From Methanobrevibacter sp. TLL-48-HuF1 (GTDB lineage: Archaea; Methanobacteriota; Methanobacteria; Methanobacteriales; Methanobacteriaceae): a stretch of DNA of 64,000 nucleotides. This document shows positions 42,127-43,485 of this stretch, in pieces (positions within the stretch are counted from its first letter, which is position 1; the number at the start of each line of letters is the position of its first letter). The notes below the pieces were generated by a model, which was not told the origin of the DNA, searched no databases, and saw only the letters and a program-made list of their open reading frames with translations. The DNA lies in contig NZ_CP081485.1 in assembly GCF_023617305.1 (NCBI RefSeq), forward strand, positions 310,001 to 374,000, given 5' to 3'. Made by a program: the position numbers and the translations under genes.

Positions 42127-42418
42127 AAATTAATACCTCACATTTTTTAATATTATAATAAATTTAAGTTCAACTACTATAAAAATACAATTATTTTAAA
42201 AATAAACCAAATTCTCCATGAAATGGTATTTCATTACATATCTGTAATGATATAGTTTTTTAAATCTTTTTTCCATAAATTCAATTCATATTTATATGTG
42301 TATATTATTAATAAAGTTTTCTATTTTAAAATAACTAAAAGTTATTAAAAACTTTTCCATAACCAAACAGCAAAAAATTAAGAAAAAAGCCACTTAATAA
42401 TTCAGTATTTAAAAGAAA

Positions 42419-42527
42419 TTTTTTATCAATTTTCACTTTCAGTGTTTTTGATAAAAAAGAGTCTAAATCTCGTGGTTTTGTTTGTAACCTTTTTAAATAA
42501 ATACATAAACAATTTTAGACATATAAC
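42419..42527 (+). repeat. duplicated foldable element, copy 1
   Basis: Read on the plus strand: hairpin B has an 11-bp perfect stem (42419-42429 with 42448-42458) with an inner CACT/AGTG. Stem A follows (GTCTAAA 42461-42467 with TTTAGAC 42514-42520), enclosing the conserved TCTCGTGGTTTTGTTTGTAA and a weak inner stem (42480-42485 with 42505-42510, one G-T pair). About 60 bases match copy 2 with few changes. Confidence 0.7.
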
Positions 42528-42721
42528 CAAATATACGGAAATATGATAATTATTTCATAATTAAAGCAATATTCACATTTAAAATCAATATTAAAGATTT
42601 AATGTCCAAATAAAAACTAATCAAAGGACAATCCATAAGTATATATACTTAAAATAACAATAATGTTAATTGTAGAATATATAATCCATATATTCTTCTA
42701 TAATCTGTTTAAAACAGAAAC

Positions 42722-42827
42722 TATCAATTTTCACTTCCGTGTTTTTGATAAAAAAAGAGTCTGAATCTCGTGGTTTTGTTTGTAAACTTTCCAATAGCTT
42801 ACAAACGTTTTTAGACTCATAACAACT
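42722..42827 (+). repeat. duplicated foldable element, copy 2
   Basis: Same layout as copy 1: hairpin B (42722-42727 with 42745-42750, inner CAC/GTG), stem A of 9 bp with one G-T pair (42757-42765 with 42810-42818), inner stem of 8 perfect pairs (42778-42785 with 42799-42806). A run of eight T follows 8 bases after stem A on the plus strand; on the minus strand stem A is followed by seven T. Confidence 0.7.
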
Positions 42828-42939
42828 TTTTTTTAAAATAATTTTTTTCACAGTTTACATAATAATAAAAGTAATAAAAAAATTATAAACTTTATCAAAA
42901 ATAAACGGATGATGTAAAATGATAAAGTTAAATTTAAGT

Positions 42940-42960
42940 TTCACCTCTCCAAGAGGTGAA
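42940..42960 (+). other. hairpin containing a ribosome-binding-site-like sequence
   Basis: TTCACCTCT/AGAGGTGAA is a perfect 9-bp stem with the loop CCA. The right arm contains GAGGTGA two bases before an ATG that is followed at once by a stop (two-codon frame). Meaning unclear. Confidence 0.4.
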
Positions 42961-43080
42961 TCATGTGTTAAATCATATAACAATAATTTTAGATGTAATT
43001 TTAATCATATTACATATTATTAATCTAATAAGATAAACGATTAAAATAATTGATAGATGAATATAAAAGTTTTTGATTTT

Positions 43081-43130
43081 TTACGCCCACGAGCTGAAGT
43101 TTTGCGTAATTTTTCCTTTTTATTTTTCAA
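43081..43130 (+). terminator. possible plus-strand terminator
   Basis: TTACGC/GCGTAA (43081-43086 with 43104-43109) is followed on the plus strand by several T runs reaching into the end of pop5. If real it would end a plus-strand transcript from the gap. Confidence 0.35.
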
Positions 43131-43485
43131 TAAATTTCTGACAGGCCTTGATAGTTCCGGATAAACCGATAGTGGAAACTGAAATATCTTTTCCATTATA
43201 TTTATAAATTAAAGCAAGAGAAGATCTTACTTCATCAACATACTCCCTCTGGCAGCGAAGAATGGCCTGATAATGATTATACTCATCTGTTTTTTCAAGC
43301 TCATAAAACTTCATAACCCATAAACTAAAATTGCCTGTTCCGTTTTCACCAAAAAAGCGAATACATCCGTTCCAAACAATATTAACCAGATCATCTTTAG
43401 AAATAACACTTTTAACTTTAACATCTAATGCCAGATAGCGGTTATTTTTCCTAAGTGTAGGGGGAAGAACCTTAAGCTTCATCAT
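43120..43485 (-). CDS. RNase P protein component 2 (Pop5)
   Basis: 121 residues of the Pop5/Rpp14 family. LPPTLRKNNRYLALDVKV at the start and the core FGENGTGNFSLWVMKF, then AILRCQREYVDEVRSSLALI, are typical. It binds the catalytic RNA of RNase P together with Rpp30 to mature tRNA 5' ends. It overlaps the end of the Rpp30 gene by 14 bases, matching their physical partnership. Confidence 0.95.
   Translation of the reverse strand: MMKLKVLPPTLRKNNRYLALDVKVKSVISKDDLVNIVWNGCIRFFGENGTGNFSLWVMKFYELEKTDEYNHYQAILRCQREYVDEVRSSLALIYKYNGKDISVSTIGLSGTIKACQKFIEK

Follow-up and report, generated by a model that had tools for sequence, protein, structure and literature searches.

The DNA between pop5 (RNase P; 43485-43120, minus strand) and psmA (proteasome alpha; 42126-41386, minus strand) in Methanobrevibacter sp. 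TLL-48-HuF1, a gut methanogen near Methanobrevibacter smithii, carries a foldable element in two copies (42424-42823), and the question is what kind of element this is. In the human gut, M. smithii is the principal methanogen. All coordinates refer to the window, the whole 64,000-nucleotide stretch of DNA that was analysed. A first-pass annotation had suggested a small RNA gene, duplicated, or else a decayed coding repeat. The analysis described here indicates that the second copy is probably a structured non-coding RNA gene (RNA I), belonging to a patchy, non-syntenic family that is usually adjoined by a second element (RNA II), and that the first copy is a truncated or decaying version of it.

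The element lies in an insert. In about 28 other Methanobrevibacter species the spacer between pop5 and psmA measures 209-243 bp, corresponds by alignment to 42127-42346 of the window and runs straight into the stop codon of pop5. In the present genome the end of pop5 has moved to 43120 and its last codons read ...QKFIEK instead of ...QKFI; because the gene end is displaced and its last codons are altered relative to the relatives, the stretch from 42347 to about 43128 (782 bp, ends approximate, no strand) is an insert. It contains both RNA I copies, is missing from those roughly 28 species and is carried only by this genome (G000, 782 bp) and a sister genome (G033, 483 bp). The retained spacer, upstream of psmA, contains a block kept genus-wide (CCAAATCTTCCATGAAAAGGCAAATTTTAATTTTAATC...TTAAAATA in relatives, plus strand), possibly a structured psmA 5′ UTR with an AT-rich hairpin.

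The tandem repeat reported earlier is real, since 42424-42527 and 42722-42823 align over 69 ungapped nucleotides at 84% with a spacing of 298 bp. Copy 1 used as a query retrieves copy 2 from the whole 1.95-Mb genome (E = 2.4e-22), and sequence and model searches of that genome return no third copy. The common folding claimed for both copies was confirmed (plus-strand z of -4.4 and -3.4, with 0 of 200 dinucleotide shuffles as good), and the minus strand of both also folds (z of -2.6 and -3.3).

The complete gene of the window is, judging from its sequence, copy 2 (about 42670-42834), with copy 1 truncated or decayed. The full predicted small RNA gene extends over 42668-42834 (plus strand, inferred ends), as suggested by homology and a layout shared with G020, G067 and two loci in G081; it folds with a z of -5.4 and scores 66.5 bits with model R3 (E 2.1e-8). 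All of its parts are on the plus strand. A TATA-like box, TATATATA (42640-42647), stands 34 nt before hairpin 1, AGAATAT...ATATTCT (42674-42696), whose arms are the same in G020 and G067 (AGAATATG...CATATTCT) while G081 has another pairing sequence. Hairpin 2, CTGTTT...AAACAG (42705-42717), is the positional equivalent of GTTTCAC...GTGAAAC in G020 and G067, and hairpin B, TATCAA...TTGATA (42722-42750), has an equivalent stem of other sequence in the relatives. Stem A (42757-42818; model R2, seven members, with covariation) encloses an inner hairpin and the conserved internal loop UCUCGUGGUUUU, the unpaired strand of which has the family consensus UGGGUUUU. A T8 run (42827-42834), likely an archaeal terminator, closes the gene. 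Copy 1 (42424-42521, plus strand; 56 bits with R3) consists of the 3′ domain only, with hairpin B at 42424-42453 and stem A at 42461-42520; missing from it are the extended stem pair, two of the inner pairs, the T-run and hairpins 1 and 2 of the family type. In most members AAAACCA 5′ of hairpin B could form a pseudoknot with UGGUUUU in the stem A loop, for which the members show no convincing covariation.

As to extent, the earlier frame (42419-42827) did hold the two copies, but the element is larger: hairpins 1 and 2 and the TATA-like box before copy 2, all inside that frame, had been missed, and the whole insert reaches to about 43128. That the element is an RNA gene is supported by relatives, compensating changes, a promoter and terminator layout and the lack of a coding signal; the word "duplicated" needs refining, because the spacer between the copies duplicates neither flank, copy 1 has no recognisable hairpins 1 and 2 or T-run, and the sister genome holds a chimera. 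The insert of G033 lacks the 298-bp unit, and its single RNA I copy, which like copy 1 has no recognisable 5′ domain, takes its left flank and 5′ half from copy 1 and its right flank and 3′ half from copy 2. This probably reflects recombination between the two copies; less simply, the 298-bp unit was gained in the present genome instead.

The suggestion to look for the core of about 60 bp in other Methanobrevibacter genomes was fruitful only in modified form, as the exact core has no match in genome contigs or viral contigs and Blast among 60 relatives matched G033 alone, whereas model and pattern searches yielded four non-syntenic relatives from three further species. Model R1, a poor model in which automatic alignment had misplaced hairpin B, gave a single weak match in G020, where the reverse strand has the same layout. 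A pattern leaving the inner stem free led to members in G067 and G081, and model R2 to the second member in G081. Model R3, for which variable loops were trimmed to N and a few insertions dropped by hand, and whose pair counts are left out as evidence, recovered all seven members, and neither 40 genomes of the genus nor 151 of the order, the latter searched with stricter filters, gave a further convincing match; 84 other Methanobacteriales genomes held no member by this model. The family thus has seven members in 5 of 67 Methanobrevibacter species. Several further candidates were discarded: viral pattern matches (L144-L156 and L172) as coding or chance, matches of the type ...ACTTTTTCACGGTTTCC... 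as a probable conserved coding gene, given their near-identity across many species, L102 as an unrelated hairpin, a hairpin-B pattern match in G025 as part of a coding gene and, by inspection, all marginal R2 and R3 matches other than G081:C127 as chance.

The loci of the relatives are unrelated. The G020 member adjoins a glutamyl-tRNA synthetase gene (named from sequence) and a CAAX protease gene, that of G067 lies between DUF763 and HIRAN genes, and of the two in G081, one has a fragment of an SDH-type protease nearby and the other ends a provirus-like contig with integrase, Sak4-like and ASCH genes. RNA I has different neighbours at each of the other loci, which makes pop5 and psmA unlikely targets. 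An inverted repeat of 62 nt, its arms 73% complementary and separated by 2 nt, also lies on the provirus-like contig (L160:4081-4206).

The relatives allow a check for covariation. In a model-fitted alignment of the seven members (A5), 96.4% of cells are paired and 7 of 16 pairs have changed on both sides, with a covariation score of 0.405 against 0.174 after shuffling (0 of 500 shuffles reach it) and 0.05-0.10 when the partner is slid; sliding by 1-3 columns lowers pairing to 33-47%. The alignment was fitted to a model bearing the tested structure, and the fit favours that structure. A plain alignment of four members (A4) has 95.3% of cells paired and three double-changed pairs, equalled by 26 of 500 shuffles, so that the compensatory changes that mark an RNA gene are seen in A5 and more weakly in A4. 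They concern the inner stem, whose sequence differs among relatives while its pairing is kept. The outer GTCTAAA/TTTAGAC stem, by way of which three relatives were found, is nearly invariant, only one G-U and the flanking pair varying, and says little on covariation because it hardly varies.

Which strand would be transcribed is a separate matter. The two stem changes described earlier are as claimed (42465 A against 42763 G, and 42802 C against 42506 T), and each produces a G-U on the plus strand. The conclusion drawn from them was weak, however, because any single stem transition is a G-U on one strand and an A-C on the other, which makes two like changes a coin flip. Over the stem cells of all seven members there are six G-U against one A-C in the plus-strand reading, which favours the plus strand and is by itself not decisive. 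Folding does not separate the strands, the five full-length members (copy 2, G020, G067 and two of G081) having z of -3.5 to -5.4 on the plus strand and, about as good, -4.1 to -5.4 on the minus strand. These five start with one or two hairpins, and at the level of sequence all have a candidate archaeal promoter and terminator of their own: a TATA-like box 26-34 nt 5′ of hairpin 1 (in the four besides copy 2 it reads TTTATA and lies at 26-31 nt) and a T5-T9 run 10-21 nt past stem A. The background for a TATA-like string in such a span is 1-5% of positions; in DNA this rich in A and T, TATA-like and T-rich strings are common, and those described here were noticed post hoc. This layout favours a predicted plus-strand RNA of about 145-180 nt.

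RNA I seems to have a companion. The two G081 loci have about 400 bp in common, starting in RNA I and running past it, and the same second element, RNA II, occurs in G020 inverted and convergent, so that it adjoins RNA I in G020 and at both G081 loci. In G067 RNA II may be present beside RNA I with its 3′ part only, again convergent (88.0, 0 of 200 shuffles; 70.0, 2 of 200). In the window, local alignment to the RNA II of G081 and G020 points to a diverged RNA II on the minus strand at 42834-43128, convergent with RNA I: the minus strand scores 98.0 against the G081 element (at most 81.0 in 500 dinucleotide shuffles, 0 of 500 as good) and 101.0 against that of G020 (at most 99.0, 0 of 500), and for a third reference it exceeds all but one of 500 shuffles. 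The plus strand of the same stretch gives no signal over dinucleotide shuffles with the RNA II references. The homology is detectable only with shuffled alignments and nhmmer --max (E of 0.003-0.03 on a tiny target). Because RNA II aligns on the minus strand, the window has the same convergent order as G020, namely gene end, RNA II and RNA I. A hairpin of this element, TTCACCTC-TTGGA-GAGGTGAA (42940-42960, minus strand), is the only terminator-like match of the region, and the place aligned to it in G081 and G020 has CACCTCC...GGGGT or CCTC...GAGG. Between G000 and G033, 42824-43119 is 99.7% identical. Almost every other intergenic stretch of the window is less so, in a region where intergenic DNA is generally well conserved, and third codon positions mostly lie far lower, at roughly 75-92% in the majority of nearby genes.

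Some further features of RNA II may be mentioned. CACCTCC in the elements of G081 and G020 (L159:1089-1510, L158:8452-8898) resembles the end of 16S rRNA that carries the anti-Shine-Dalgarno sequence, which could be chance; the window has CACCTC paired with GAGGTG. The 3′ part of RNA II (L159:1089-1510, L095:1249-1499; TATCACCACTAGAAGTTATATGAAGTTTAGTGTTTTT in G081) resembles hairpin B of RNA I (TAGAAGTTGTATGA in G081; in the window TATCA...CACT...AGTGTTTTT), as if RNA I and RNA II had a domain in common. A TTACGC...GCGTAA hairpin (43080-43115), just past pop5 and in the start of RNA II, is fully conserved in G033.

Several other explanations have to be weighed against an RNA gene. The insert might be functionless debris of a virus or mobile element that once integrated, with hairpins kept through recent common ancestry, and its clade-specific and patchy occurrence, the member on a provirus-like contig, the decayed appearance of copy 1 and the loss of 298 bp in G033 would fit this. 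Such a remnant is nevertheless unlikely, given that compensating changes keep the inner stem across five species; the near-identity of the RNA II part between the two genomes, set against third codon positions, also speaks against it, in intergenic DNA that is generally conserved. Quite improbable, too, is a minus-strand signal in which stem A and its T-run form a transcription terminator or 3′-end processing site duplicated downstream of pop5. The minus-strand run of 6-7 T after stem A, pointed out by the first-pass annotation, is real; the A-rich linker by stem A is kept in 7 of 7 members and gives the minus strand a terminator-like hairpin and U-run, the folding of that strand beats shuffles, and in the window the signal follows pop5 in that gene's orientation. 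In G067 and G081, however, the neighbouring genes run in the other direction and the signal would follow no gene end, while the conserved hairpins 1, 2 and B and the fixed plus-strand TATA distance would be left unexplained and the 6:1 ratio of G-U to A-C favours the plus strand. Archaeal termination is driven mainly by U-runs, so that a terminator would have no need of a conserved, structured stem.

An operator or other DNA-level element, with the hairpin B palindrome as a protein-binding site, is very improbable: in each copy hairpin B forms an almost perfect dyad, yet its centre and arms vary by 1-nt indels between the copies, relatives keep its pairing and not its sequence, and the genome has no further copy of the palindrome. 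The decayed coding repeat on the minus strand (LQTKPRD...) has hardly any credibility left, for although a 61-aa minus-strand ORF crosses copy 2, a Pfam search with it found no match, 1-nt indels between the copies break the frame, and base pairing rather than a reading frame is kept in the relatives.

With RNA I as a non-coding RNA gene, the transcript would be an RNA of about 145-165 nt made up of hairpin 1, hairpin 2, hairpin B, an A-rich linker and a closing stem A (GUCUAAA/UUUAGAC), the last presenting a conserved unpaired strand and an inner hairpin of freely varying stem sequence. It would use its own TATA-box promoter and U-run terminator, whose sequence and position are seen and whose use is presumed. 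RNA I and RNA II would have landed together behind pop5 in one insert, which itself is evident from comparison, and copy 1 would be a second 3′ domain, truncated or decaying. Transcription, lateral spread by viruses and action in trans through the stem A strand are what we infer from this picture. It may be, tentatively, that RNA I derives from a virus or mobile element and is a regulator that works in trans through base pairing or protein binding at the exposed strand of stem A; our best guess for the family is a horizontally spread regulatory RNA that is partly virus-borne. More speculative, and rather doubtful, is a mobile cassette without protein, made of two structured RNAs (RNA I, about 160 nt, and RNA II, about 300 nt) in usually convergent arrangement, which would pass between viruses and the chromosomes of methanogens and exert its effect as RNA, for instance in conflicts of virus and host. 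An RNA family that covaries, has promoter-like signals and a conserved partner element, and occurs on chromosomes and on a provirus-like contig could be tested directly in M. smithii, and would extend known archaeal non-coding RNA by an apparently mobile RNA gene pair.

In searches of open-access titles and abstracts for small or non-coding RNA in Methanobrevibacter, nothing concerned this locus, and no paper on small RNAs of M. smithii came up. RNA I resembles the families of Rfam 15 in being a structured RNA with covarying stems; none of the 4227 models has a gathering-level match in the window, and at E<=5 nothing rises above chance for the region, the relatives or RNA II, the weak matches (RAGATH-30, ceN53, TMV_UPD-PK3, snR31, L13-Bacteroidia) lying far below gathering. 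By inspection, a box H/ACA guide was rejected on account of the one-sided stem A internal loop (about 9-15 nt against 1-6) and an ACA after the stem that is paired or absent, and a box C/D guide for want of C/D boxes in RNA I, also without an Rfam match. As in MITEs and other protein-free insertions, a clade-specific insert has no recognisable gene and related copies sit at unrelated loci; unlike in MITEs, the insert ends lack terminal inverted repeats (42300-43200 has no inverted repeat of at least 20 nt), most carriers have one locus per chromosome and the structures evolve through compensating changes. A MITE or transposon remnant was rejected for lack of terminal inverted repeats and of many copies, the genome having no third one. 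The nearest counterpart among methanogens may be sRNA162 of Methanosarcina mazei, an archaeal intergenic small RNA with its own promoter, for which the description drawn on here gives targets and expression (PMC3510493). Compared by that description only, RNA I differs in its patchy family, its partner element and its virus-like location, and is alike in being a short, structured intergenic methanogen RNA that is predicted to be independently transcribed; it looks like the representative of a new family of apparently mobile archaeal small RNAs.
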